From a virus, in the IMG/VR virus record IMGVR_UViG_3300038701_002786, positions 1-64,000 of that record: a DNA stretch of 64,000 nucleotides. The stretch is one strand, 5' to 3'. Below are positions 3,362-59,943 of the stretch, piece by piece (position 1 is the first letter of the stretch; each line of letters opens with the position of its first letter). The position numbers and the translations under genes are program-made. The notes under the pieces are model-generated. The model made no database searches. It worked only from the letters and a program-made list of their open reading frames with translations, and had not been told where the DNA came from.

Positions 3362-3598
3362 TCAGTATCCTATGCCTCCAAATGCCGTACCGTTGTTTAA
3401 AGAACGATTATGTCGGTTGCATTTTTCGATTGCGCTCTTTAGCGTGCCTTTGTGTTGAATCCATGTTTGATGACCATCTTGGCCCCTTGTGTATATGGCG
3501 AAAAAGGTTCCATCCATTTTGATGATTTTGTAAACACCCTGGCTGGTGTCGCTGCGTCTGGTTGTTGGTGATGTTTTGATGAATTTAATTGCGTCCAT
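3362..3598 (-). CDS. small protein of unknown function
   Basis: The start at 3598 lies behind the shared leader (CACACACCCAAGAGG, then GCATCACGT and ATG). The longer frame merely translates that leader. The 78-residue product is basic, with a central beta-rich stretch (YKIIKMDGTFFAIYTRG) and no recognised domain. It is the first of the genes driven by the nine-copy promoter module. Confidence 0.6.
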   Translation of the reverse strand: MDAIKFIKTSPTTRRSDTSQGVYKIIKMDGTFFAIYTRGQDGHQTWIQHKGTLKSAIEKCNRHNRSLNNGTAFGGIGY

Positions 3599-3708
3599 AC
3601 GTGATGCCTCTTGGGTGTGTGAAGTAAGCGTCGTTGCCTCTTCCATGGTCTAGTTATCTCACAGGTGAATCGTTATTTCAACCATCTTTTTGACAAATAT
3701 GCAAAAAG
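3599..3708 (-). promoter_or_regulatory. shared promoter/operator/hairpin leader, copy 1
   Basis: Reading leftward: an inverted repeat CTTTTTG-N9-CAAAAAG (3686-3708), -35 TTGAAA, a 17-base spacer, -10 GATAAC (3653-3658), a hairpin GAAGAGGC-AACGAC-GCTTACTTC (3621-3643) with one bulged A, then the ribosome site AAGAGG. This is the most diverged copy. Its hairpin stem uses different bases from copies 2, 4, 6 and 7 but still pairs. Confidence 0.75.
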
Positions 3709-3880
3709 TTCGATAGCGTCGCATGTTGAGTGACAATCTCGTTTGTTTTGAGTAGCTTATGTTTTTTGGATTGAAAATTATGAAGGGGGTATTTTCCACG
3801 AAAGCGAGACATTTTTGCCACACCTTCACAGAAACACCTAGCATGCACACACGTGCACACATTGACCCGATCGTGCGCAC
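3709..3880. other. AT-rich intergenic stretch with no gene seen
   Basis: No reading frame with a ribosome site is seen between the promoter copy at 3708 and the terminator at 3881. A leftward frame crossing it lacks a start site and overlaps real features, so I leave it out. Confidence 0.4.
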
Positions 3881-3909
3881 AAAAAAAGGGAGGGGTAACG
3901 CCCCTCCCT
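3881..3909 (-). terminator. intrinsic terminator
   Basis: On the minus strand a 9-bp stem AGGGAGGGG/CCCCTCCCT with a 5-base loop is followed by seven T residues. It closes the leftward gene at 3918. A closely similar hairpin lies at 6581. Confidence 0.9.
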
Positions 3910-3917
3910 GTGTTGCC

Positions 3918-4175
3918 TCATTTTGCGAATGAAAGGAACGCGCCCTCATTGGTTGAGTCGACATCAGCAAACCTTGCTTGCTTGGCTTTGATGAGTCCCG
4001 ATACATAGTGTTCGATCGAGTTGTATTCAGAGTTGCTGCACTCTTTGATTTCCAGCCTAAGCCCTTTGTATTCAGGGTTGTCAACAACTGACCGGATGAT
4101 TGAGATGCCTTCACTGAAGGTTTTAGCGACAATTTCAGCGAAACCGGGGAAATCTTTTGAGATAGGGAAAGTCAT
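3918..4175 (-). CDS. small protein of unknown function
   Basis: The start at 4175 follows the shared leader (AAGAGGTAACACAC, then ATG); upstream in-frame residues merely translate that leader. The 85-residue product is mixed alpha/beta with no recognised domain. It is a single-gene unit with its own promoter copy and terminator. Confidence 0.65.
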   Translation of the reverse strand: MTFPISKDFPGFAEIVAKTFSEGISIIRSVVDNPEYKGLRLEIKECSNSEYNSIEHYVSGLIKAKQARFADVDSTNEGAFLSFAK

Positions 4176-4286
4176 GTGTGTTACCTCTTGGGTGTGTGGG
4201 GTAGGCTGTATTGCCTCCCTGATGTCAACCATACTGACAGAACATTTAAATTGAGTCAATAGGTATTTTGTCGATTAGGCAAAATA
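4176..4286 (-). promoter_or_regulatory. shared promoter/operator/hairpin leader, copy 2
   Basis: Leftward: TATTTTG-N9-CAAAATA (4264-4286), -35 TTGACT (4254-4259), 17 bases, -10 CAGTAT (4231-4236), hairpin GGGAGGC-AATACA-GCCTACCC with a bulged A, then CACACACCCAAGAGGTAAC and ATG. It lies back to back with copy 3. Confidence 0.85.
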
Positions 4287-4333
4287 AATGTAATTACCTC
4301 GACAAAGCACAATAAAACCAACGACTTGTATTC

Positions 4334-4448
4334 TGTTTTAAAAATAAACAAAATAACCCTTGATTTATGTGGTGGCCTGATCAATAATACAAGACATCAA
4401 AGGGACACGGCATACAGCTCAAGTCCACACACCCAAGAGGTAACACAT
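4334..4448 (+). promoter_or_regulatory. shared promoter/operator/hairpin leader, copy 3
   Basis: A CAAAATA half-site (4349-4355) has a weak left arm. -35 TTGATT (4360-4365) and -10 AATAAT (4383-4388) are 17 bases apart. The hairpin is a variant: GGAC (4403-4406) pairs with GTCC (4423-4426) around an inner GGC/GCT stem. The ribosome site is AAGAGGTAAC. Confidence 0.8.
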
Positions 4449-4697
4449 ATGAACGACGGACAATGGCAACAATGGCAAGAGTTTCAACGTGATGCAGCAC
4501 CAGAGCACAGAGAGTTGCGCCGCTCCAATAGAACGGCCCGAAAAGAACACAAGTGCGCCAACTGCGGGTGCGCCATCATGCCTGGGCAAGTCTATATCGA
4601 CATTGCCTACATTGAGGATATGGACTTCTACACTCACAAAGAACACGAAAATTGCCCCGAAGAGGGTGCATTCTTCCTTGGCTATATTCCATTTTGA
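4449..4697 (+). CDS. small putative zinc-binding protein
   Basis: The start at 4449 follows the shared leader. The 82-residue product has a Gln/Trp-rich N-terminus, then a basic stretch and CANCGCAI with a later HKEHENC, which could form a single zinc site. Its stop overlaps the start of the next gene (TGATG), so the two are translationally coupled and share promoter copy 3. Confidence 0.6.
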   Translation: MNDGQWQQWQEFQRDAAPEHRELRRSNRTARKEHKCANCGCAIMPGQVYIDIAYIEDMDFYTHKEHENCPEEGAFFLGYIPF

Positions 4698-5113
4698 TGA
4701 TTGAAGAGATTGAAAACGCAAGGCACACACTCTCCGCAAGGCAAGTGTGTGCCTTTATGTGCGCGCTGAATGTCGATGTGGCGCGTTGTGCGGCGTTGTT
4801 GGGTGTGAACATCAGGACGATCAACGCTTGGCGTACACGTGGTGTCTCTGGCCCTGGCGCGATCGTGTTGTCGGCTTGCGTCAACGATCTGGCATCATAT
4901 GAGCTAAATGATCCGCGCAATCATGAACCGCTCGGCACATGGCGCGGTGTGTCGCTTGACTGTGCCGTGGCGTCTTATCTGGCGTTTAATGGCTATGACG
5001 GGCGCACATTGAAGATGCAGGGGGATCGACTGCTTATCTCTAAAAACGCCCCCCTTGAGCGCAACGTGTTGCTCTGGTGTGTTGATCTGGATGATCAGCC
5101 CGGCATCATATGA
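4697..5113 (+). CDS. HTH-like protein, paralogue of the gene at 8465
   Basis: The 138-residue product has a helix-turn-helix-like N-terminal half (CAALLGVNIRTINAWRTRG, about 35-53), then VSGP. A second block, DCAVASYLAF, NGYDGRTLKM and GDRL, is also present nearly unchanged in the protein at 8465. DNA binding is inferred from the HTH pattern; the second block is of unknown function. It is coupled to the preceding zinc protein and ends convergently, overlapping the gene at 5095 by 19 bases. Confidence 0.65.
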   Translation: MIEEIENARHTLSARQVCAFMCALNVDVARCAALLGVNIRTINAWRTRGVSGPGAIVLSACVNDLASYELNDPRNHEPLGTWRGVSLDCAVASYLAFNGYDGRTLKMQGDRLLISKNAPLERNVLLWCVDLDDQPGII

Positions 5114-5346
5114 GTGAACGCTTTGATATGTCGCTTCCATGATTTGGGGTACAGCTCGACCATTGCTTGCTTTGGATCGATCTTTTCGCCTTGTTTGATA
5201 TACGAATTGAGCAATTTGGTTCGCTTTTTAATCTGTTCAAGCGCTTCATCACCAGGCGCGCACTGCATGATTTGACGATATGCAATGTCGAGTTGCCGTG
5301 ATTCTGTCTTGAGATAGTCAATGATTGCGCTTTGAAGATTGTTCAT
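5095..5346 (-). CDS. small helical protein of unknown function
   Basis: The 83-residue product is almost entirely helical and charged (for example DEALEQIKKRTKLLNSYIKQ), with no recognised domain. The start at 5346 is fixed by the shared leader with AAGAGGTAAC. Its 3' end overlaps the convergent HTH gene by 19 bases. Confidence 0.6.
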   Translation of the reverse strand: MNNLQSAIIDYLKTESRQLDIAYRQIMQCAPGDEALEQIKKRTKLLNSYIKQGEKIDPKQAMVELYPKSWKRHIKAFTHMMPG

Positions 5347-5455
5347 GTGTTACCTCTTGGGTGTGCGGGGTAGGCTGTATTGCCTCCCTGATGTCAACCA
5401 TACTGACACAGAATCAACCCGTGGTCAATAGGCATTTTATCGATTCAGCAAAATA
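5347..5455 (-). promoter_or_regulatory. shared promoter/operator/hairpin leader, copy 4
   Basis: Leftward: CATTTTA-N9-CAAAATA (5433-5455), -35 TTGACC (5423-5428), 17 bases, -10 CAGTAT (5400-5405), hairpin GGGAGGC-AATACA-GCCTACCC with a bulged A, AAGAGGTAAC and ATG. It is back to back with copy 5. Confidence 0.85.
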
Positions 5456-5501
5456 AGCACCGCGTATGATGAAAAAGCTCTAAATATCAACACTTTAAAC
5501 T

Positions 5502-5617
5502 CTATTTTAAAAATAAACAAAATAACCCTTGACCAGAATCAAATCCTGATCAATAATACAAGACATCAAAGGGATACAGCACATCGCTCAAGCCCACACA
5601 CCCAAGAGGTAACACAC
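5502..5617 (+). promoter_or_regulatory. shared promoter/operator/hairpin leader, copy 5
   Basis: CTATTTT-N9-CAAAATA (5502-5524), -35 TTGACC (5529-5534), 17 bases, -10 AATAAT (5552-5557). The variant hairpin is GGG-AGC-ACATC-GCT-CCC (5571-5595) with an internal loop, followed by AAGAGGTAAC and ATG at 5618. Confidence 0.85.
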
Positions 5618-5842
5618 ATGAATGCAATTTACGGACACATCAATATCACCGCAGAAATCACCCACATGACCCCCATGGGACGCACTGAAACCGTCTCTAT
5701 TGAGTTGCAAGACGAAGAGGCATGGATGGCATTCGATGCACTCAACGACAGCGACACGAACGAAATGGTGCTGAAGCAAGACGATGTCTGGGGGATCTGT
5801 GAGCAGTTCAACGCAACTCAAGTCTACATCACGAGTTGCTGA
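5618..5842 (+). CDS. small acidic protein of unknown function
   Basis: The 74-residue product is acidic, with a probable beta-rich N-terminus and a helical centre (DEEAWMAFDALNDSDTNEM). No domain is recognised. It is a single-gene unit between promoter copy 5 and a terminator 5 bases after its stop. Confidence 0.65.
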   Translation: MNAIYGHINITAEITHMTPMGRTETVSIELQDEEAWMAFDALNDSDTNEMVLKQDDVWGICEQFNATQVYITSC

Positions 5843-5847
5843 ACTTT

Positions 5848-5870
5848 AACGGGGGTGCTAAACCCCCGTT
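5848..5870 (+). terminator. intrinsic terminator
   Basis: A 9-bp stem AACGGGGGT/ACCCCCGTT with a 5-base loop is followed by TTCT, just after the stop of the small gene at 5618. Confidence 0.8.
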
Positions 5871-5888
5871 TTCTATATGGAAATAAAG

Positions 5889-5998
5889 TATTTTGCCGAT
5901 TAGACAAAAACATCTTGACCGGAACGTAAGTCTGATCAATAATACAAGACATCAGGGAGGCAATACAGCCTACCCTACACGCCCAAGAGGTAACACAC
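5889..5998 (+). promoter_or_regulatory. shared promoter/operator/hairpin leader, copy 6
   Basis: TATTTTG-N9-CAAAAAC (5889-5911), -35 TTGACC (5915-5920), 17 bases, -10 AATAAT (5938-5943), hairpin GGGAGGC-AATACA-GCCTACCC (5955-5975) with a bulged A, AAGAGGTAAC and ATG at 5999. Confidence 0.85.
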
Positions 5999-6571
5999 AT
6001 GACCAAGTTCAACTCCAACACCATCAAATCATTCTTCATTCAATTCGACGACAACGCATTCAGCGCGTACCACTCGTTCTTCTCTGCTCACATGGGATAC
6101 ACCCCTAACGTACACTGGCCATGCGAACACAACGCCATTCAGGCTGCATTTGAGGCGCACGGTTGGCAATATTCCCAAGAGAGTACGATCGAAGCGCTCA
6201 AAACCTTCTCAAAGCGCTTTTCGAGGAAAATCAAGCAAGCTGTGGGCAGCAAAAGGATCGAGGATAAGATCCTGTGGCACGCGAAAACCCCTGACAGCCA
6301 GGACATCTATCGATTCTTTCTGGAGATCGGCCCACAGCCTGTGGGGATCTACAAGGCAATGCTTGAAATGTACGTCTACCCTGGCGCAAACCCTACCTAC
6401 TCAGGAGACGCTGAGAGCATTTGTAAGGCAATGCAAGCGCTTGGGTGGACTAAGGGTGTAGAGGAGACCACCGAAGCGCTTAGGGGCTTCATCTCGTACT
6501 ACAAAGAGAGCTTCAAACACGCTGAACCCTGCATGAAAGTTCGGTTGATGGATGCCAAACGCGCAGCATAA
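5999..6571 (+). CDS. protein with an internal tandem duplication, unknown function
   Basis: The 190-residue product seems to hold two related blocks of about 70 residues. Both contain a Tyr/Phe-rich helix, then a small-residue turn, A-F/M-x-A-x-GW and TxEAL followed by an aromatic/basic helix (roughly residues 15-85 and 105-180). No family is recognised. It forms its own unit with promoter copy 6 and a terminator. Confidence 0.65.
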   Translation: MTKFNSNTIKSFFIQFDDNAFSAYHSFFSAHMGYTPNVHWPCEHNAIQAAFEAHGWQYSQESTIEALKTFSKRFSRKIKQAVGSKRIEDKILWHAKTPDSQDIYRFFLEIGPQPVGIYKAMLEMYVYPGANPTYSGDAESICKAMQALGWTKGVEETTEALRGFISYYKESFKHAEPCMKVRLMDAKRAA

Positions 6572-6580
6572 CGAAAGTAA

Positions 6581-6607
6581 AAAGGGAGGGGGTAACGCCC
6601 CTCCTTT
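6581..6607 (+). terminator. intrinsic terminator
   Basis: A GGGAGGGG/CCCCTCC hairpin with flanking AAA and TTT follows the gene at 5999. It closely resembles the hairpin at 3881, suggesting that the whole cassette (promoter, gene, terminator) was duplicated. Confidence 0.75.
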
Positions 6608-6734
6608 GGAATATCCCTTGAGGCTTCGTGGCTGGCGTTCTAATCGATTACGTCCAGTCGCGCGAGGTAGGGTTAAGCTTCTTTCGCGCTGGCCCTCCAG
6701 CGTTGTCTGGAGCTTGTTTTCGTTCGCGCTGATT
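6608..6734. other. non-coding spacer with two short hairpins
   Basis: No gene is seen. Two inverted repeats can be read: CCAG/CGCGA pairing with TCGCGCTGG around 6653-6694, and CTCCAG-N6-CTGGAG just after it. The region may hold a small RNA, or the remains of a deleted cassette. Confidence 0.35.
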
Positions 6735-6845
6735 TATTTTGCCTAATCGACAAAATACCTATTGACCGTAACCTGATTTTGTGTAAGTATGGTTGACATC
6801 AGGGAGGCAATACAGCCTACCCCGCACACCCAAGAGGTAACACAC
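6735..6845 (+). promoter_or_regulatory. shared promoter/operator/hairpin leader, copy 7
   Basis: TATTTTG-N9-CAAAATA (6735-6757), -35 TTGACC (6762-6767), 17 bases, -10 AAGTAT (6785-6790), hairpin GGGAGGC-AATACA-GCCTACCC (6802-6822) with a bulged A, AAGAGGTAAC and ATG at 6846. The operator arms are perfect. Confidence 0.88.
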
Positions 6846-7592
6846 ATGACCATTCCATCAAACATTATCGGACAGCTTCGTGAAACCATGCCATATGGCG
6901 AAGAATCCTTTTTTGAGGGCACCTACCCCGATCACACGATTGAAGCGCTTGAAGAGTACGTGAAGGCGTATGGATACATCGTAGATGTGTATAAGGGTGG
7001 ATTGTCTCTTCGTCGATCAAACGTGTGGGATATTGCGCCAACCCACTGCCTGTGCTGTGGACGGCCCCTCACCGACAGCACTTCAGTCGATGCCGGGATC
7101 GGCCCGGTATGCCGAAAGAAATACAATTACGAAGACGCACCAGTGTTGGATGCGCCAACTATCGAACAGCTCAAGCAATTGGATTTCATGGGGTACACTT
7201 TTGAGAGCCAAATCAAAGATTCGCGTAAAGCGGCGAACAACTTGGTTCGCTACTACGCCGTGATCGCACACCAGGGACGCAAGCGCGATCAACAGATCCA
7301 AATCATTAACGTGTTGTATATGATGGGATTGAGCGTGTTGGCTGATAAAATATCCGATCGGTTGGTGGATGGCCCATCGATCGAAATTAAAGGCACCTTG
7401 CTTTTTATCGAAGCCAGGTATGATCAATTGTGGGTTGATGCGATAAAGGGCATCAACGGTCGCAAGTTCGACGCGAAGACCAAGACGTGGTCAGTACCCC
7501 TTACGCAGAAACAAAGCCTCTGGAGCGTGATTAAGGCGCACTTTAAGGGGTGTGTCGGCAAGGGGCCAAAGGGTGTGTTTGTTGTGGCATGA
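6846..7592 (+). CDS. DUF6011-type zinc-ribbon protein with a HARP-like C-terminus
   Basis: The 248-residue product contains CLCCGRPL and GIGPVCRKK (about residues 62-95), the four-cysteine pattern of DUF6011, which is common in phage and plasmid proteins and often fused to nucleic-acid enzymes. Its C-terminus (about 195-245) has IEARYDQ, then IKGINGRKFDAKTKTWSVPL, resembling the HARP module of annealing helicases. An ATP-independent nucleic-acid-binding role is inferred. The start at 6846 is set by promoter copy 7; an upstream in-frame ATG at 6789 only translates the leader. A terminator follows at 7597. Confidence 0.8.
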   Translation: MTIPSNIIGQLRETMPYGEESFFEGTYPDHTIEALEEYVKAYGYIVDVYKGGLSLRRSNVWDIAPTHCLCCGRPLTDSTSVDAGIGPVCRKKYNYEDAPVLDAPTIEQLKQLDFMGYTFESQIKDSRKAANNLVRYYAVIAHQGRKRDQQIQIINVLYMMGLSVLADKISDRLVDGPSIEIKGTLLFIEARYDQLWVDAIKGINGRKFDAKTKTWSVPLTQKQSLWSVIKAHFKGCVGKGPKGVFVVA

Positions 7593-7596
7593 ATTG

Positions 7597-7627
7597 AAAG
7601 AGCTGGCGAAATACCCGCCAGCTCTTT
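7597..7627 (+). terminator. intrinsic terminator
   Basis: An 11-bp stem AAAGAGCTGGC/GCCAGCTCTTT is followed by TTAT right after the DUF6011 gene. Confidence 0.9.
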
Positions 7628-7736
7628 TATTTTACCAAATCGACAAAATACACCTTGACCGAAACGTAAGACTGATCAATGATACAAGACATCAGGGAGG
7701 CAATGAAGTCTACCCCACACACCCAAGAGGTAACAC
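7628..7736 (+). promoter_or_regulatory. shared promoter/operator/hairpin leader, copy 8
   Basis: TATTTTA-N9-CAAAATA (7628-7650), -35 TTGACC (7655-7660), 17 bases, -10 AATGAT (7678-7683), hairpin GGGAGGC-AATGAA-GTCTACCC in which a G-C pair is replaced by G-U, then AAGAGGTAAC and ATG. Confidence 0.85.
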
Positions 7737-8027
7737 ATGAACGTATTCGTAAAGCCACACCAGGACCAGAAAGTCATCCGCAAGGCGCTCGTTGAATTGT
7801 GCAAAAAAAGGGGCGTCCACGGTTGGGGACCGCAAATCAATATCACCATGGAACTTGGTGTTGACGCACCTGTCATTGAGTGCAAATCAAAGCATGTAGA
7901 GCGTTTTACGCCCGGTGAGGTCATCAGGATAGGGGTATACACCTATGAAGTGTGTAAATTTTCTTATCGTACATGGCGAGAGGATATGTCTTGCGGATTC
8001 GTGCATATAAAGCGGATCGCTGTATAG
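7737..8027 (+). CDS. small protein of unknown function
   Basis: The 96-residue product looks beta-rich in its second half (FTPGEVIRIGVYTYEVCKF), perhaps a small barrel, with a helical N-terminus. No family is recognised. The start is fixed by promoter copy 8. Confidence 0.65.
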   Translation: MNVFVKPHQDQKVIRKALVELCKKRGVHGWGPQINITMELGVDAPVIECKSKHVERFTPGEVIRIGVYTYEVCKFSYRTWREDMSCGFVHIKRIAV

Positions 8028-8028
8028 T

Positions 8029-8145
8029 GATGTTTTTTTGCGAATCGTAAAAAAACATCTTGACCACGATTCAATCCTGTGAGATAACTGCTTTATCGAA
8101 AGGGAGGGGCATCACGCCCTACCCCACACACCCAAGAGGCACCAC
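8029..8145 (+). promoter_or_regulatory. shared promoter/operator/hairpin leader, copy 9
   Basis: The inverted repeat is extended: GATGTTTTTTT-N9-AAAAAAACATC (8029-8059). -35 TTGACC (8060-8065), 17 bases, -10 GATAAC (8083-8088), hairpin GGGAGGGGC-ATCAC-GCCCTACCC (8102-8124), AAGAGGCACC and ATG. The extended repeat may also terminate the preceding gene. Confidence 0.82.
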
Positions 8146-8418
8146 ATGGACGCATTTACCCCCGAACAAAACGCCACCATCGCCCAGATCGTTGACTACA
8201 TCGACGAATCCGTCATGCCTGACGGCGCGCAAGATTTCATGGGCTGGTTGGTCGACGCCGCCGATCACCAACGTGTTGGCGCAACGCGCAGCGCGCTTGA
8301 GCGCAAGGAGTATCGCGCAGCTCTCGGGGCGGCACTTCAAGTGGAGCACCCTGATATTCGCGAAGCGATGATGATTCAAGTGCAGGATATGATCGCAAAG
8401 AAACTTGGCGACTTTTGA
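8146..8418 (+). CDS. small helical protein of unknown function
   Basis: The 90-residue product is predicted helical throughout and acidic at its N-terminus, with no recognised domain. It is the last gene behind a copy of the shared leader. A GC-rich hairpin separates it from the HTH gene at 8465. Confidence 0.65.
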   Translation: MDAFTPEQNATIAQIVDYIDESVMPDGAQDFMGWLVDAADHQRVGATRSALERKEYRAALGAALQVEHPDIREAMMIQVQDMIAKKLGDF

Positions 8419-8464: not shown

Positions 8465-9196
8465 ATGACTGACGAAAAAGAAAAAATGATGACCGGACGT
8501 GAAGTGTGCAGCTCCATGGCTGCCTTGAACCGAAGCGCTGCACAATTCGGCGATGATATGGCCGTACACGAACACACGGTCAACGTATGGCGCATGAATG
8601 GTGTCTCTGGCCCTGCTGCGTTGTTGATTCAAGATAAGATCGATGCGTTGAACACGTACAAGATCATTGAACCCAAAACCGACGAGGACTTGGGCGACTG
8701 GCCAGGAATCAACGCAGATTGTGCGGTTGCGTCGTATCTGGCGTTTTCGGGTTATGACGGGCGCACATTGAAGATGGATGGCGATCGGCTCAACATTGCC
8801 GCCGGGTCTGGCTTGGAGACAGAGATCGCCAAGTGGATGCCTCGTGATTGGATTCGAGTGTTTCATGGTGTTCGTCACAAAAGCCGAAATTTCATGCGCA
8901 TCGAACATGATTCGCTGATTATGGATGAAATGTTTGGCGAGCGCACCACCGAAGCGACGTTGCGAGACTGGACGGTCTGCATCGCATATGCGGTTTGGCC
9001 ATCGGGTGATCGTCGACGCGCAAAGTATTTTGAGCTTGTGCCCTCCGATGAATACCAGGAGCGTATTCACCTGGGTGAAGATTGGTGGATCGAGGGATAC
9101 TTTGATGTTGTGGTCAACGAAAACCATCAGCGTCGAGCAAATGAGGCATACAAAGTGCGCAAGCATGAAGTGCGCGCGATGATTGTTGAAGAATAA
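8465..9196 (+). CDS. HTH-like protein, longer paralogue of the gene at 4697
   Basis: The 243-residue product shares with the 4697 protein an HTH-like N-terminus (AVHEHTVNVWRMNGVSGP, about 38-55) and the block DCAVASYLAF, SGYDGRTLKM and GDRL (about 85-115). A C-terminal half absent from the paralogue follows, with IRVFHGVRH, FMRIEHDSLIMDEM and Trp-rich segments. A DNA-binding regulator is the most likely reading, with the C-terminal function unknown. It is probably transcribed from promoter copy 9 through the hairpin at 8432. Confidence 0.65.
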   Translation: MTDEKEKMMTGREVCSSMAALNRSAAQFGDDMAVHEHTVNVWRMNGVSGPAALLIQDKIDALNTYKIIEPKTDEDLGDWPGINADCAVASYLAFSGYDGRTLKMDGDRLNIAAGSGLETEIAKWMPRDWIRVFHGVRHKSRNFMRIEHDSLIMDEMFGERTTEATLRDWTVCIAYAVWPSGDRRRAKYFELVPSDEYQERIHLGEDWWIEGYFDVVVNENHQRRANEAYKVRKHEVRAMIVEE

Positions 9197-9721: not shown

Positions 9722-9949
9722 ATGAACATTGAACAACTCAAGAACAAGCCCTCCGCACACATCAACGCGCAAACCCCTATTTGGGTTCAAGCGCATTGGT
9801 TGGCTGAAGACCAGGCGCGCTCGCTCGCTGAACACTTCATAGCGTTGACTGTGCGACCAATCACCCCGTCAGTTTCGATGGAGTTTGCGATGGTGCCATA
9901 CCCGCAAGACGACTCGATCGATTTTGAGTGCGAAGAGGTCGCGCAATGA
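9722..9949 (+). CDS. small protein of unknown function
   Basis: The start follows ACACACCCAGAGGTGACTG and ATG, a fragment of the shared leader without its promoter or hairpin. The 75-residue product has no recognised domain. Its stop overlaps the start of the next gene (ATGA). Confidence 0.6.
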   Translation: MNIEQLKNKPSAHINAQTPIWVQAHWLAEDQARSLAEHFIALTVRPITPSVSMEFAMVPYPQDDSIDFECEEVAQ

Positions 9950-10842
9950 ACCACTTGAGCACACCAGAGCTTTGCGCGCTGCGAATGGTACGGCGCGCCA
10001 ACATCATCACCACACGAAATCTTGCATCAATGTTCAGGATCAGCTCATTAGAGTTGCATCAGATCATGACGCAAGAGGTGTTTCCGTATGACGGTCTTGG
10101 TCCGATGAACACAACGTGGCGTCTCGACATTAAGCGCCTTAACATCGACACAAGACGCGCGCTTGTGGCGTGGATGTACGGCCAGACACGCGAGGACGGC
10201 TATCACATGTCTACTCGAAACATTGCATCCATGTTCGGCATCGACAAGCGCACTGTGAAAAATGATCTTGATGCAATGAATGTGACCACTCGCTCACAGG
10301 GCAACGCGCACCCGATTCGAGAACAGCTCACATATGAAGCCATGGTTGCACTGAGGAAATCGAAGACCATGCAAGAGATTGCTGACTCACATCGTGTGAG
10401 CCTTCGCCTGGTTGAGCAGATTTGGACTGATGTCAATCACGAGCGACCCATCAACATTCTCTCAACACCATGGGTTCCGGTGATCGATGCTGATGGCACC
10501 ACGCACACGATTCGCGTTGTGGAGTTGGCAAACGAACGATGGATAGAGATCAACACTGGTCATGCGGTCACAGATATGGCGGTGCGATTGTTTCTCATTG
10601 GTCTGATGCAAAGTGTTGTCGGCAAGGTGTCGCGCCGACCAAATGCAGTGCAGTTCCAAAGTATCTTGAGTGATGCGCAAGACGCCTTTTTCCTGACCGG
10701 CAAAGACGCTCTGTTTTTGCAATCTGCCATCGAAGCCAGCACATTGAAGCCTCCACATGAGTTGCTACCATGGACAGCATCAGGTAACACATTGACGCGC
10801 AACGCGGACATATTCAACGAACGACAACCTTACCGCACGTAG
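9946..10842 (+). CDS. multi-HTH DNA-binding protein
   Basis: The 298-residue product (start at 9946 by ATGA overlap, preferred over an upstream in-frame ATG) carries three helix-turn-helix-like segments: ITTRNLASMFRISSLELHQI near residue 20, MSTRNIASMFGIDKRTVKND near 85 and TMQEIADSHRVSLRLVEQIW near 135. The C-terminal part is helical and without a recognised fold. The pattern fits a phage transcriptional regulator; its target is not visible. Confidence 0.7.
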   Translation: MNHLSTPELCALRMVRRANIITTRNLASMFRISSLELHQIMTQEVFPYDGLGPMNTTWRLDIKRLNIDTRRALVAWMYGQTREDGYHMSTRNIASMFGIDKRTVKNDLDAMNVTTRSQGNAHPIREQLTYEAMVALRKSKTMQEIADSHRVSLRLVEQIWTDVNHERPINILSTPWVPVIDADGTTHTIRVVELANERWIEINTGHAVTDMAVRLFLIGLMQSVVGKVSRRPNAVQFQSILSDAQDAFFLTGKDALFLQSAIEASTLKPPHELLPWTASGNTLTRNADIFNERQPYRT

Positions 10843-10845
10843 AGT

Positions 10846-11613
10846 GTGTCACAAGCCATCGTTGGACTGATCACCGCACAACAATTTTCATGGTGCAAGG
10901 GCCGTGGTCATTATGCCAACATGTTCGCGCGTAAGGTGTTTGCGTATGAGCAAGGTGAGGGGTTGTGGGATACGCTTTGGCGCAATGCTGGCGATGGTTC
11001 ACATTCAGGTTATCCATGGATGGATCATGGCGAGGTCAACCCTTGGTGGTTGATGCCGTTGAAGATCAGGTTGCATTGGGATGGTGTGCAATGCACAGGG
11101 TTCTACACCGAAGTTGATGGCATACGTTATGACAGTGAAATCAATCACCCGCTGGCGCTTGATTTGAATGCCCAGGAGGATAACATCTCGATGGATCTAA
11201 GGATTCGAGCATCACTTGGCGATCGTGCATCAGAGCAAACACGAGTCTTCGGCATCCACTGGAACAAAGCAAAAATGGTTGGCGTGTTTCATCGCACATT
11301 GCAACCGCTTGAAGACATCGAAGAGATCGAACACATCAGGCGTCATCTGTATCTTGCGATGCGTCGCGTGATGTGTGAAGCCCCGAGCAGTACACGGCCA
11401 ATTGTTTGGACGCCTCGCGAAGAGAAGGTTCAATCCTATGGTGTTGTGTTACACGAAGCGGAGCGCATGTTCTTGGATCGCATCATTGAAGATCACCAAC
11501 GCAATAAAACGCGACAGCAACACGCGCTGGATGTCTTCGATCTCAAGGCTCAATCAGATAACCCACGAACCGAGTTTTTTGCTCGTTGTCATTTGGTTTC
11601 ATCGCTGTCCTGA
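10846..11613 (+). CDS. protein of unknown function
   Basis: The frame opens with GTG at 10846, 3 bases after the preceding stop. The ribosome site is weak, so the start is uncertain. The 255-residue product is rich in Trp and His (WCKGRGHYANMF, GYPWMDHGEVNPWW) and ends in a long charged helical part. It overlaps the convergent XRE repressor gene by 25 bases. Confidence 0.6.
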   Translation: MSQAIVGLITAQQFSWCKGRGHYANMFARKVFAYEQGEGLWDTLWRNAGDGSHSGYPWMDHGEVNPWWLMPLKIRLHWDGVQCTGFYTEVDGIRYDSEINHPLALDLNAQEDNISMDLRIRASLGDRASEQTRVFGIHWNKAKMVGVFHRTLQPLEDIEEIEHIRRHLYLAMRRVMCEAPSSTRPIVWTPREEKVQSYGVVLHEAERMFLDRIIEDHQRNKTRQQHALDVFDLKAQSDNPRTEFFARCHLVSSLS

Positions 11614-13207: not shown

Positions 13208-13513
13208 TCACGTCTCGATCTCAACGCACAACCCATAGATTGCACCGAATGAAATCCATCCATTGACGTGGCCCTTGTTGTTGCTGATTTGAAACCGCCC
13301 ATCAGGACCAACAGCGCTGATTTTGTGGAGATACTGACGACCGTTGACTTTGCACAACACAATGTCTCCCTTGTTCAGTTCATCCTCAACACAAGGCCGA
13401 ACAGTCACGAGTTGGCCGCTCTCGATCCTAGGTTGCATGGAGTGGCCACGGGGCCGAAACTTCACCGTCTCACCGTTGCTCAACTTCTCGATGTGGTATG
13501 TTGCCCAACTCAT
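13208..13513 (-). CDS. S24 (LexA/UmuD-like) peptidase domain protein without HTH
   Basis: The 101-residue product contains RGHSMQPRI with the catalytic serine at residue 25, GDIVL near 49, and YLHKI with the presumed catalytic lysine at 64, then a G-R-F-x-I-x-N-K/N-x-x-G stretch. This is the Ser/Lys peptidase fold of LexA, UmuD and phage repressors. It starts directly with this fold, so it has no DNA-binding domain and no obvious N-terminal cleavage loop. It could act in trans, as a co-protease, decoy or maturation factor. It overlaps its upstream neighbour by ATGA. Confidence 0.8.
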   Translation of the reverse strand: MSWATYHIEKLSNGETVKFRPRGHSMQPRIESGQLVTVRPCVEDELNKGDIVLCKVNGRQYLHKISAVGPDGRFQISNNKGHVNGWISFGAIYGLCVEIET

Positions 13514-55550: not shown

Positions 55551-57431
55551 TTACCAAAGGACAACTGGTTGGTCTGCCGGTTCGTTTGTTTCGTCGCCCA
55601 AGGCTTCCAGGGTTGAAACTGGGATGCCTAACCCCAAGCCTCCGTAAGAGTTACTGCCCCAGCAGTACACATTGCCATCTTCTACGAGCGCGCATGTTCT
55701 GTAGAACCCAGCTTCAACCTGAACAACTTTTCCCGGCAGCAGCACTGGAAAGGTGGGGTTTCGAGTGCCGGTTGTGTTGCCAAGGCCCAGTGCCCCATTG
55801 AAATTGTTGCCCCAGCAATACACTCGGCCCGCGAGATCGATTGCGCATGTGTGTTGATAGCCCGCTGACACATCTACAGCACCAAATTGGAGCGGTACTT
55901 CAATTGGCGGCATTTCAGCTGGCCCATCACCAATGTCATTGTTGTTTCCAATGCCAAGTTGTCCAAATTCATTTCTTCCCCAACACTGGACTTTGTCATT
56001 GTTGGTGATGATGCATGTATGTTCATATCCTGCATCAATGGTTTTTGCATTGCTGATACTGATTTGGCCCGTGATGGGTTTGTTGGATAAGCCTATATTG
56101 TCTTGGTGGCCCAGGCCGAGTTCGCCAAACTCGTTTCTGCCCCAACACGTAACATCGCCTGAATTGAATAGAACACACGCATGTTCATCGCCGACTGCCA
56201 ATTCTTTGACATTGCTGGCGAGTACGTTGGGTTGTAGCGGATAATCTTCAGCGTTTCTACCTAGGGTCGGGGTATCTTGGTTGAGTCCTAGTTGTCCATA
56301 TTGATTGGAGCCCCAACATGTGACTTGGCCTGTTGTCAAAAGGGCGCACGTAAATAGTTCGCCTTGTTGGACATCTGTTACTGTGGTCGTCAGTTCAACA
56401 GTTTCAAAGACATCGGAGGTTGAGTCTCCAATTGCTTGCTCACCGTTGACGACGCCTGCTTTGGCTAGTGTATTGGCACCCCAACAGACTGCCTTATCAT
56501 CAGGTGTTACTGCACATGTATTGGCTCCTGTAGATTGGCCCATTCTTTTGCCAAAAACTTTAGCGCTCTTGAGCGGTACGCTCGCCGGAGACTCTCCTTG
56601 TGGGGTAGTGTTCAGCAGAGCAAGTTGACCGGAGTTGTTGCTGCCCCAACACCTTAGTTTGGTGTTGTTCAGGCGTGCGCAGATATGATTGAGGCCCATT
56701 GCGATTTCAATGGCAGCCAGCCTCCATCCTGCGACGTATTCAGTGATGTATGCGTCTTGACCAGGATGTTGAGTGATTTGGGCTCGGTATAGACGTTGTT
56801 CCCCATTTGGAAGCGCAGTAATGTCGGTGGTTGAGGTCAATAACTGCCATTGGTTGCCATTGTCTGAATATTCAAATGATATAGCCATATTGGTTTCAAG
56901 GCGCCCTTCAATCACGTCACTGGTCAGCCCAGGTCGGTCGAACGTGTCGATCGCTCGGACCACATATTGGTGTTTTTTTGGCTCGATGACTTGGATGTTA
57001 TCAAGTCCAATTGCAACATGAGCTCTATATTCACCTTTGGACGCCTTAACCGTTGCTGTTTGAATTGTGCCCAGGTTAGCGTTTTGATCTTTGTATATTG
57101 TATCCAAGCCAAGATCGAGCCATGTGCCGTTGAGACAATCAGGAGAAGCGTCTTTGCAAATTTGATACTTAGTTGCCCCAGGAATTCCGCGCCATGTCAG
57201 TTGTATATGGCTTGTTGTGGCCTCAAGCTCAACGACAGGCGCTTGGAGCGTAGATGGCAATGTGTCTGCGTCCACATCCGATGTGATGTCATTGGCGGCG
57301 TCAGATGGCATATCGACGGCATCAATCATGTCGATTCTTACATCCCACTCCTCATTGTAGTTGTTGGGGTTCTCAAACAAAGTGCAGCCAGACACCAGTA
57401 GAAATAAAATACCAATTGTAAAAAGCTTCAT
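55551..57431 (-). CDS. RCC1-repeat surface lipoprotein
   Basis: I use the ATG at 57431. The 626-residue product has a signal peptide with lipobox SGC, an acidic linker (IDAVDMPSDAANDITSDVDA), a region like a fibronectin type III fold (about 65-165), then about seven RCC1 repeats of the form H-x-C-A-L/I-x-x-x-G-x-V-x-C-W-G-x-N-x-x-G-Q-L-G. RCC1 repeats fold into a beta-propeller used for binding. It is the last gene of the kinase operon and would be an exposed binding protein. Confidence 0.85.
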   Translation of the reverse strand: MKLFTIGILFLLVSGCTLFENPNNYNEEWDVRIDMIDAVDMPSDAANDITSDVDADTLPSTLQAPVVELEATTSHIQLTWRGIPGATKYQICKDASPDCLNGTWLDLGLDTIYKDQNANLGTIQTATVKASKGEYRAHVAIGLDNIQVIEPKKHQYVVRAIDTFDRPGLTSDVIEGRLETNMAISFEYSDNGNQWQLLTSTTDITALPNGEQRLYRAQITQHPGQDAYITEYVAGWRLAAIEIAMGLNHICARLNNTKLRCWGSNNSGQLALLNTTPQGESPASVPLKSAKVFGKRMGQSTGANTCAVTPDDKAVCWGANTLAKAGVVNGEQAIGDSTSDVFETVELTTTVTDVQQGELFTCALLTTGQVTCWGSNQYGQLGLNQDTPTLGRNAEDYPLQPNVLASNVKELAVGDEHACVLFNSGDVTCWGRNEFGELGLGHQDNIGLSNKPITGQISISNAKTIDAGYEHTCIITNNDKVQCWGRNEFGQLGIGNNNDIGDGPAEMPPIEVPLQFGAVDVSAGYQHTCAIDLAGRVYCWGNNFNGALGLGNTTGTRNPTFPVLLPGKVVQVEAGFYRTCALVEDGNVYCWGSNSYGGLGLGIPVSTLEALGDETNEPADQPVVLW

Positions 57432-57433
57432 AT

Positions 57434-58216
57434 TCACCACCTTGTAATGAATTGTAATGATGTAGGGGTAGCACGTATGGCGACTGAGGTTTCTACAGTC
57501 AACAGATCAGCACTCAACAATAAAACACCACCCACGCCGAACAAGATAGTGCCACCAAGGGCTGTTCGACCACGCCACTGAGCGTTATTGAGTAGCGTTG
57601 CATTGCGTTCGAATTCTGTGGATGAGCGAGAGCTATTAGTTTTTTTCAAGTATTGTTCGACCTCGTTGAGTTCTCGATTCAACCAAAACCCACTCAATAC
57701 ACCGAATCCGATAGACACTATGCCAAGATAACCTGTTGTGCTCATGCGAGATTGCATAGTTTTTGGGCCATGGTTGGTGATAGATACATTTTGTCCAGCG
57801 CAGACGCCTTGCGCGTTTTGACACCTGTTGTCGTTGGTTTGGTTTGTGTTACTGGTTACATTGGGTTTTGTGGGCGCAGTGGTTTGGTCCGAGCCTAGGA
57901 GTTGACGGGCTCGTTTTACACGGGCAGCGCGTTCGGGTGATAGTTTAGTTTGATCGACGAGACCACAAACACGGCGTGCGTCGGTATCGCGTTTGGCATC
58001 GATGAGCATCATACACCATGAGTAGGCCACGATAGGGCGAGGCGTTGACTTCCATGTGCGCTCGAACAACACATCAGATGAGTTGTACTGGCCATCGCGA
58101 GCCTTTTGAAGTGCTTGTTCATATGTTGTGTCTTTCGCCACTGCCAAGGATGGCCAGAGCATCATAATGGCGATGAGCCATCGTATGCTTCTGTTTTTGA
58201 TTTTGTATTGTTCCAT
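57434..58216 (-). CDS. exported TPR-like protein with membrane segments
   Basis: The 260-residue product has a signal peptide (about 12-27, SLAVAKD), a short helical repeat part (YEQALQKARDGQYNSSDVLF; ARRVCGLVDQTKLSPERAAR), a Thr/Asn-rich linker and two hydrophobic segments near the C-terminus (about 165-182 and 222-240). Its start lies inside the kinase gene by 55 bases, so translation may be coupled. Confidence 0.6.
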   Translation of the reverse strand: MEQYKIKNRSIRWLIAIMMLWPSLAVAKDTTYEQALQKARDGQYNSSDVLFERTWKSTPRPIVAYSWCMMLIDAKRDTDARRVCGLVDQTKLSPERAARVKRARQLLGSDQTTAPTKPNVTSNTNQTNDNRCQNAQGVCAGQNVSITNHGPKTMQSRMSTTGYLGIVSIGFGVLSGFWLNRELNEVEQYLKKTNSSRSSTEFERNATLLNNAQWRGRTALGGTILFGVGGVLLLSADLLTVETSVAIRATPTSLQFITRW

Positions 58217-59418
58217 TTTAACTTGTTTCCCATTTTAAGTTTTGACGAATTTTGTCTTTTTTTAATTTCTATTGCAAATCGAAGAGTGTGAGCGCTAACC
58301 AAGTCGGCGCGGATATTCGCCTGTGAGTTTGGGTCGCCGTTGAAAGTGAGTTGGGAGTTGTTGACGCTCCGTTTGATTGAAATAATGTGTGCGTGTGTTT
58401 TCGATTGATTATAGATTCTTGTTGCTATCGAGCCTGCTGAGATTTTGCCATTCAGGTTGTTAAGATTTGTTTGGTAGTCAGGCTCCTTTGGTTGATTTTG
58501 TTCACGTTCGTGAATCTCCAAAATCATCAATGCAGTGACCCAGCCAACCACAACCACAAAGGCAATTGTCATTGAAGTGCCCCGATGTTGTTTAGGCACC
58601 ACGATCGGCTTTATCTCTGTTGGTTTCTCAAGCGAATTGAGCAATTGCTTTGAGTTGGCTGCTCGTTCAAAGAGAACTTTTTTCAGCATTAAATTAATGG
58701 CGGATTCTAATTGAGGGTCATGGAGATTAACCTCAAGGGATGGTCCATTGTAGAGATTTGACAGAAATCGCTTGGCCACTGAGTTTTTATGCATCTCCAA
58801 TGTGGCGCCTTTGCACAGCCAGTAGCAAACCATGCCCAGGCTATACAAATCTGATTGGTGCGTGAGCTTGGTTGGGTCGATGTGTTCAGGGGATGAGCAG
58901 TCCAAGGTGCCCAGTGTTGTTTCATCGGTCGTCAACGGTTGTTGATTTCGCCCCCAAGAAGAAGAGCCAAAATCAATAAGAACGGGCCGCGTGATGTTGT
59001 TATCGCTGAGCATGATATTGCCGAGGGATATGTCACGGTGCAAAACCCCATGTTCCTTCAAGGACTGGAGCACCCCGAGCATTGATGTCAAAAAAGATTT
59101 CAGTTGAAGTTCTGTAATCACGTTACCGGATTCAAGCCATTCCCATACACTACAGCCTTCAACGTAATTCGTTACAATGTGTAGTTTGTCGTCTTTATGG
59201 ATAACATCCATAAACCGCAGCATTTGTCCGTTGAGACCTTGTAGTTTTGACAACACCTCAATTTCGCGTTTGGCACGAGCCCGTTTCGTTTCGTTTGAAT
59301 TGAAGTCAATTGTTTTTATAGCAACCAGACGACCTTCATCGTCTGATGCTCGCCAGATTTCACCGTTGGCGCCATGACCGATGCTTTCGTGTATCATGTA
59401 TGGACCAAGGCGATTCAT
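58162..59418 (-). CDS. Hanks-type Ser/Thr protein kinase with membrane anchor
   Basis: The 418-residue product has a full kinase domain: G-loop GHGANGEIW (about 14-22), AIK, HRDISLGNIML catalytic loop near 128, DFGSSS near 147 and GTLDCSSPEH (activation-segment end, near APE). A membrane segment (MTIAFVVVVGWVTALMILEI, about 281-300) follows, then an extracytoplasmic part of about 115 residues. The plan is that of PknB-type receptor kinases. It is coupled to the small gene upstream by ATGA. This is unusual cargo for a phage. Confidence 0.9.
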   Translation of the reverse strand: MNRLGPYMIHESIGHGANGEIWRASDDEGRLVAIKTIDFNSNETKRARAKREIEVLSKLQGLNGQMLRFMDVIHKDDKLHIVTNYVEGCSVWEWLESGNVITELQLKSFLTSMLGVLQSLKEHGVLHRDISLGNIMLSDNNITRPVLIDFGSSSWGRNQQPLTTDETTLGTLDCSSPEHIDPTKLTHQSDLYSLGMVCYWLCKGATLEMHKNSVAKRFLSNLYNGPSLEVNLHDPQLESAINLMLKKVLFERAANSKQLLNSLEKPTEIKPIVVPKQHRGTSMTIAFVVVVGWVTALMILEIHEREQNQPKEPDYQTNLNNLNGKISAGSIATRIYNQSKTHAHIISIKRSVNNSQLTFNGDPNSQANIRADLVSAHTLRFAIEIKKRQNSSKLKMGNKLKWNNTKSKTEAYDGSSPL

Positions 59419-59840: not shown

Positions 59841-59943
59841 ACAGTTTCTTGGAAAACTTTTCTTGTACAATTTTGACTGGAAAAAGTTTCTTGGAAAAGT
59901 TTTCCAAGAAACTGTTGACTGGAAAACTTTTCTAAACTAGTCT
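59841..59943. promoter_or_regulatory. operator cluster and promoter of the sliding-clamp gene
   Basis: A 29-bp perfect palindrome with arms AGTTTCTTGGAAAA (59885-59913) is flanked by TTGGAAAACTTTTC (59849-59862) and GGAAAACTTTTC (59921-59932). TTGACTGGAAAA occurs twice (59873 and 59915). A possible promoter is TTGACT (59915-59920), 17 bases, TAGTCT. Its spacer contains an operator. The region lies between the leftward kinase operon and rightward dnaN. Confidence 0.75.

Follow-up and report, generated by a model that had tools for sequence, protein, structure and literature searches.

Nine leaders resembling the conserved upstream regulon of IncN plasmids precede small accessory genes in an incomplete phage record

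The first 64 kb of the 81,498-bp virus record IMGVR_UViG_3300038701_002786 (the stretch analysed here, hereafter the window) carry genes for a DNA methylase, a class II ribonucleotide reductase, a DnaB-like helicase, a primase, a terminase, a portal and a major head protein, together with an island of small genes in which nine start codons, on both strands, are preceded by copies of a single leader. A tape-measure reading frame begins in the record and runs past its end, which, with the gene content, marks the record as an incomplete tailed phage. It is a phage of few acquaintances: no close relative was found in the viral_contigs, phages and genomes collections, its DnaB-like helicase, phosphoesterase, terminase and helix-turn-helix (HTH) paralogues retrieved no relatives from viral_contigs or genomes when used as queries, its large terminase subunit (TerL) is at most 37% identical to those of known phages, and the DUF6011 protein of the seventh unit has only two distant relatives. 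We propose, with a probability of roughly 0.6, that the island is a phage regulon built like the conserved upstream (CUP) regulon of IncN plasmids, in which nine stand-alone cassettes share a dimeric regulator and a 5' hairpin.

Every leader (u1 to u9; Table 1) follows one order: operator, -35, 17-bp spacer, -10, hairpin, CACACCC, AAGAGG and ATG. A preliminary description of this DNA had reported nine such modules on both strands, with an exact 17-base spacer and unrelated genes behind them, and on these points it holds: all nine stand at the predicted starts and only there in the record, the distance from TTGA.. to the -10 is exactly 17 bases in 9/9, and blastp among the nine products returned nothing below an E value of 0.3. 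Most of the products match no known family, the u7 product (DUF6011) being the assigned one. The leaders are confined to 3.6-8.1 kb. A search of the whole record with CACACACCCAAGAGGTAACA at up to three mismatches gave nine matches, all of them leaders, and the reversed-pattern control gave none. Scanning the record with matrices built from the nine copies, as the description had proposed, set operator plus promoter (59 bp) at 37-69 bits against 5 bits for the next-best site, and the ribosome site at 31-40 bits against 9.8; as the leaders themselves are the training set, the informative quantity is the gap to any other site, which is 20-30 bits. The element AAGAGGTAAC is exact in seven of the nine (u1 has AAGAGGCATC and u9 AAGAGGCACC), and likeness extends only a few bases beyond the ATG, as ATGGACGCA in u1 and u9 and as ATGAC or ATGAA in the rest. 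Three promoter types can be told apart (u2/u4/u7, u3/u5/u6/u8 and u1/u9), the first with a consensus-weak -10 (CAGTAT or AAGTAT) and a TG one base upstream. An assembly error was rejected because genes and spacers differ between copies, as were stoperator-type sites because the copies sit exactly at promoters in fixed register.

Table 1. Leaders, terminators and candidate regulator genes of the island (window coordinates)
Feature	Position	Strand	Operator	-35	-10	Hairpin	ATG	Gene behind the leader; remarks
Leader u1	3599-3711	-	3686-3708 (CTTTTTGCATA-T-TTGTCAAAAAG)	TTGAAA 3676-3681	GATAAC 3653-3658	3622-3647	3598	3362-3598 (78 aa); AAGAGGCATCACGT-ATG
Leader u2	4176-4289	-	4264-4286	TTGACT 4254-4259	CAGTAT 4231-4236	4199-4224	4175	3918-4175 (85 aa)
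Leader u3	4330-4448	+	~4334-4355	TTGATT 4360-4365	AATAAT 4383-4388	~4403-4426, variant	4449	4449-4697 (82 aa); divergent from u2
Leader u4	5347-5458	-	5433-5455	TTGACC 5423-5428	CAGTAT 5400-5405	5368-5393	5346	5095-5346 (83 aa)
Leader u5	5499-5617	+	~5503-5524	TTGACC 5529-5534	AATAAT 5552-5557	~5571-5595, variant	5618	5618-5842 (74 aa); divergent from u4
Leader u6	5885-5998	+	5889-5911 (flipped orientation)	TTGACC 5915-5920	AATAAT 5938-5943	5950-5975	5999	5999-6571 (190 aa)
Leader u7	6732-6845	+	6735-6757	TTGACC 6762-6767	AAGTAT 6785-6790	6797-6822	6846	6846-7592 (248 aa, DUF6011 domain)
Leader u8	7625-7736	+	7628-7650	TTGACC 7655-7660	AATGAT 7678-7683	7690-7715	7737	7737-8027 (96 aa)
Leader u9	8030-8145	+	8033-8055 (TTTTTTTGCGA-A-TCGTAAAAAAA; arm bases matching 10/11)	TTGACC 8060-8065	GATAAC 8083-8088	~8102-8124	8146	8146-8418 (90 aa)
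Terminator	3887-3909	-							behind u2 gene
Terminator	5848-5870	+							behind u5 gene, directly ahead of leader u6
Terminator-like hairpin	7598-7629	+							behind u7 gene; T-run merges into u8 operator
Second gene of unit u3	4697-5113	+							HTH-like N-terminus (weak); candidate island regulator
Gene downstream of u9 gene	8465-9196	+							243 aa; candidate regulator; no database relative

The hairpin is the part of the leader by which it can be followed beyond this phage. In all nine copies the predicted transcript forms the stem-loop only a few bases in from its 5' end, and folding leaves CACACACCCAAGAGGTAAC largely open. Its sequence varies in four versions of the same shape, and in seven of the nine leaders no more than 7% of shuffled sequences are equally stable. 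Across 18 sequences, 85.7% of stem cells are paired, against at most 55.6% when the stem is slid; four of the seven stem pairs have changed on both sides, and the observed values are equalled by 0-2 shuffles in 500, a control that relatedness among the sequences weakens. Run on the record, a covariance model found u1, u2, u4, u6, u7 and u8 (some of which are in the model) and two further matches; the better of these, with an E value of 0.08, is the u2-gene terminator (3887-3913). The terminator hairpins GGGAGGGGTAACGCCCCTCC (at window 3882-3909 and 6579-6604) are themselves similar to the leader hairpins, most of all to that of u9. Neither the island nor four comparison loci brought any Rfam family close to its cut-off, and a known riboswitch was rejected on this ground.

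The same hairpin leader occurs on IncN plasmids. In E. coli genomes 811 of 817 hairpin sites lie on plasmids, with a median of four per genome, and 829 plasmid records match, 776 of them conjugative. Plasmid NZ_CP158436 encodes ArdB, ArdR, CcgD, CcgAII and StbABC and is therefore of IncN type, its hairpin sites being leaders of the ArdK-repressed CUP regulon outlined for the IncN plasmids pKM101/R46 (Delver and Belogurov 1997, as cited in PMC5371602 and PMC6289460). The CUP build is TTGACT-N17-GATAAT-TAAATCATC-GGGAGGCAATACCGCC, and the seven leaders of this plasmid read TTGACT-N17-GATAAT-TAAATCATC-GGGAGGCAAYACCGCC. Recognition works in both directions: a matrix made only from other phages and plasmids ranks u2, u4, u6 and u7 as the top four sites of the phage record (26.7 against 12.5 bits), and one made only from the window places the seven CUP leaders first on the plasmid (22.7-25.3 against 12.5 bits). 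The match to the CUP hairpin is full in u2, u4, u6 and u7, partial in u8 and u1, and one of shape only in u3, u5 and u9.

As judged from sequence, the closest relative of the phage leaders is thus the IncN CUP regulon and not the start-associated sequences (SAS) and extended SAS (ESAS) of mycobacteriophages, to which the preliminary description had likened the arrangement; nor is it supported that a repeated unit of promoter, operator, hairpin and ribosome site lacks precedent, since CUP leaders are built almost alike and have hairpin sequence in common with it. In both systems one leader recurs ahead of several small genes that are unrelated (nine here, seven on NZ_CP158436), with a TTGAC -35, a 17-bp spacer, a (G/A)ATAAT -10, CATC and a GGGAGGCAAyAC(C/A)GCC hairpin, then a ribosome site, and both have a regulator site adjoining the -35. 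In IncN and IncW plasmids such promoters are kept down by ArdK, a repressor that binds beside the -35 (PMC9723621; PMC5371602), at an operator that is a direct repeat at or overlapping this element (PMC9723621), whereas the phage operator is a palindrome centred at -51. Furthermore, the CUP leaders of the examined plasmid all point one way and those of the phage lie on both strands, the sequence from hairpin to ATG differs, and the phage record has neither an ArdK/KorA gene nor any homologue of an IncN gene. The island is therefore CUP-like, sharing the hairpin and the CUP manner of working, but it is not a member of the CUP regulon, as it lacks ArdK/KorA and its operator differs in type and position.

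Other phages also carry the hairpin leader. At least six further phage lineages have it in the interval from a -10-like site to a small gene's start, among them Dhillonvirus, Vequintavirinae, Eneladusvirus, Xuquatrovirus, an Aeromonas phage and two kinds of Vibrio phage, with further hairpin-search matches in Acinetobacter phage ABPH49, Henunavirus and other phages. In every annotated region inspected the hairpin stands within about 20-45 bases ahead of a small open reading frame, close behind a -10-like site, features that were absent from the query; the few weak matches inside genes (e.g. one at E 2 in a tail gene of an Aeromonas T7-like phage) were taken as chance. A distant blastn search with leader u7 gave one match group, an intergenic leader of T4-like Vibrio phages in which the -10, the hairpin, CCCAAGAGG and the ATG line up, and the phage matched has six related leaders of its own. 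In T4-like Vibrio phages (L038/OZ195724; 19644-19745, 80298, 84588, 105174 and 119297) an early leader (GAGTATAATGGTTGTCATTGGGGCAA...) stands six to seven times before small genes. The leader 17-mer was absent from viral_contigs and turned up in genomes only as scattered single matches that lacked leader context. A 437-kb phage (L010) with a homologue of the u7 product was rejected as a leader relative, as its own repeated leader is different and has no hairpin match; that leader, GGTAACAAGAGGTGTACG, occurs on both strands at seven sites with up to two mismatches and at 13 with up to three (control 0), including 9885-9931, 8797-8843 and 11418-11464, and one copy lies ahead of the u7-gene homologue.

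Two accounts of so wide a distribution may be considered. The CATC-GGGAGGC-AAyAC(A/C)-GCC... hairpin might be one undescribed RNA leader at the 5' end of early transcripts, exchanged horizontally and shared by many unrelated phages with IncN plasmids, whose loop is read by a host factor, giving any invading element strong expression of accessory genes, including anti-defence genes, at entry; we regard this as possible without favouring it. Convergence, in which a simple 5' stabiliser has been reached many times, is likewise conceivable and falls short of being probable. Stems rich in G are a widespread solution at the 5' end, T7 gene 10 transcripts carry one, and u3, u5, u9 and u1 arrive at a similar shape from different sequence. 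However, unrelated elements share not only the stem but also its loop AAyAC(A/C) and the CATC ahead of it, the stems vary with compensation, and in one Vibrio phage group the match takes in the whole stretch from -10 through ribosome site (82% identity over 49 bases, E 0.008).

Three further phage systems invite comparison with the island. In cluster K mycobacteriophages 11-19 copies of SAS lie at the start codons of non-structural genes, around half with an upstream inverted repeat; the ESAS repeats, with two 17-bp arms and a 4-13 bp spacer, directly precede the SAS at the ribosome site, and their authors found little support for an mRNA hairpin (PMC3203893). Both SAS/ESAS and the island have repeated elements next to start codons, many with an inverted repeat, but the leaders described here have operator, promoter and hairpin as separate in-line parts, carry AAGAGGTAAC in place of the 13-bp SAS GGGATAGGAGCCC that lies 3-7 bp before the start codon, and have their palindrome upstream of the -35 rather than just upstream of a SAS. 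The promoter-stem-loop (PeSL) cassettes of T4-type phages, reportedly described by Arbiol in 2010 and Comeau in 2014, have stem-loops that are terminators, whereas the repeated stem-loop of our leaders lies in the 5' end of the transcript; terminators adjoin several of the leaders, their sequences lying outside the repeat, and in the T4-like Vibrio phage D507 a terminator and the 5' hairpin are both present. In common with the island, PeSL cassettes have strong early sigma-70 promoters linked to stem-loops and repeated among small accessory genes, and they are implicated in gene shuffling (PMC4503421). Lastly, the SPBRE elements of prophage SPbeta, bound by MrpR through a 15-bp motif (PMC10516654), resemble the island in placing one short operator for one phage regulator at many promoters of mostly unknown-function genes, but that paper describes neither a leader RNA nor a ribosome site common to them.

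Diverged as they are, the nine copies can be read against each other much like related species, and they carry the mark of selective constraint. Mean pairwise identity, for which chance gives 0.40, is 0.45 ahead of the operator and 0.50 in the spacer of the promoter, and rises to 0.70 in the operator, 0.69 in the -10, 0.71 in the hairpin and 0.87 in the ribosome site, so that each of these elements looks selected. The pattern can also be seen by eye in the divergent intergenic regions u2/u3 and u4/u5, two copies of one sequence: scrambling affects the 17-bp spacers and the stretch separating the operators, the remainder is nearly identical, and the genes flanking them differ on both sides. Leaders u6 and u8 are mosaics, with a -10 block like that of u3/u5 and a hairpin like that of u2/u4/u7. 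Copied divergent regions and mosaics suggest the copy-and-insert mode of gene gain that had been put forward earlier, though suggestively only, as a recombination-free tree may also account for them. They would also fit leaders kept mainly as recombination points, PeSL-like mobile cassettes that shuffle accessory genes with shared regulation secondary, and so would the terminators beside several leaders, the confinement of the island to a small-gene region and the rearrangements that CUP repeats are thought to mediate in IncN2 plasmids (PMC5371602). We nonetheless consider such a main role unlikely: recombination needs plain identity, which is lost precisely in the promoter spacer and retained in the functional elements, and no close relative was found to display an exchange.

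The operator is a 23-bp palindrome of 11-1-11 half-sites, TATTTTGyCkA-w-TmGrCAAAATA, centred 16 bp before the -35, near -51, and about 86-115 bp before the ATG. The inverted repeat TATTTTG-N9-CAAAATA reported at first survives as a palindrome in the copies, its exact form being limited to two of the nine. Among the variants u6 appears flipped, u3 and u5 have an A-rich centre, and u1 and u9 have longer A/T runs with both arms altered in concert; the co-varying arms and the flipped core speak for a dimeric protein and against an UP element. That the A/T-rich palindrome is an UP element for RNA polymerase alpha subunits, leaving nine promoters strong and constitutive on infection, is improbable, for although proximal UP sites lie at about -46 to -40, just where the proximal arm CAAAATA falls, and the A/T tracts are retained in 9/9, an UP element requires neither the non-A/T core GyCkA-w-TmGrC kept in most copies, nor arms that co-vary, nor a core that has been flipped. 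In viral_contigs the operator core has 18 isolated sites, none with TTGAC at the right distance. A second palindrome, AGTTTCTTGGAAAAGTTTTCCAAGAAACT, lies directly before TTGACT at window 59885-59914 (+), upstream of gene 59971, repeating the operator-then--35 layout in another sequence.

As the preliminary description had it, operator, promoter, hairpin and ribosome site move as one unit, and the pattern of conservation implies one shared regulator. In the CUP-like regulon that we favour, the nine cassettes would express small accessory genes, probably early genes used at cell entry. Each leader would place its palindromic operator about 51 bp before the start point of a sigma-70 promoter, and the transcript, starting near (A)CATCA, would fold at once into the stem-loop GGGAGGC-AATACA-GCCTACCC or a variant, followed by a largely unstructured CA-rich stretch and the GAGG ribosome site. 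One dimeric regulator on all operators would switch every unit jointly, its repression being lifted on naked DNA entering the cell, and the 5' hairpin would most likely shield the 5' end of the mRNA and keep the ribosome site open. The regulator is probably a repressor rather than an activator, given the near-consensus -35 and spacing and given that ArdK is a repressor. Candidates are the products of 4697-5113 and 8465-9196, paralogues with 47% identity over 116 aa (the structure prediction of the 243-aa protein was unsuccessful, with a pLDDT, or predicted local distance difference test, of 35), and two further HTH_3 proteins in the record.

Several points weigh against this reading. An operator at -51 is unusual for simple repression and for class I/II activation alike, and the transcription starts are predictions from the letters. 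The external hairpin match covers only about 16-26 bases, and as the external matches were found through a hairpin search, their position alone, and not their similarity, counts as independent evidence. Neither PF16509 nor phmmer with ArdK found a KorA/ArdK homologue in the 81.5-kb (incomplete) record, and outside the island no copy of the operator lies near any of its HTH genes. The regulator is thus a postulate, and may lie in the missing part, as the record is a fragment.

Other genes of the window stand apart from the leaders. A 304-aa protein at 9928-10842 (+) has HTH-like stretches followed, at residues 176-299, by a match to the N-terminal portion of Cse1/Cas8e (E 1.2e-10 in Pfam; E 1.3e-9 in NCBIfam, under the NCBIfam cut-off), with no match in PDB; it is possibly a Cascade-subunit mimic and candidate anti-CRISPR. 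At 13208-13513 (-) a 101-aa S24-type peptidase domain is encoded by itself, with no DNA-binding part. An RCC1-repeat protein lies near a Ser/Thr protein kinase (55551-57440 (-) and 58162-59418 (-)), which is unusual in phages.

A leader piece with common sequence and structure here ties together three subjects so far described apart: the CUP regulons of plasmids, the early promoter cassettes of phages and their start-associated repeats. The leader hairpin has the look of a common device by which invading DNA elements operate their accessory genes as sets and, if it is a true RNA element, it would serve as a search tag for early, entry-phase genes. The entry genes in the leading regions of plasmids include anti-restriction genes; if the reading holds, many small phage genes of unknown function that lie behind the hairpin could be singled out for testing.

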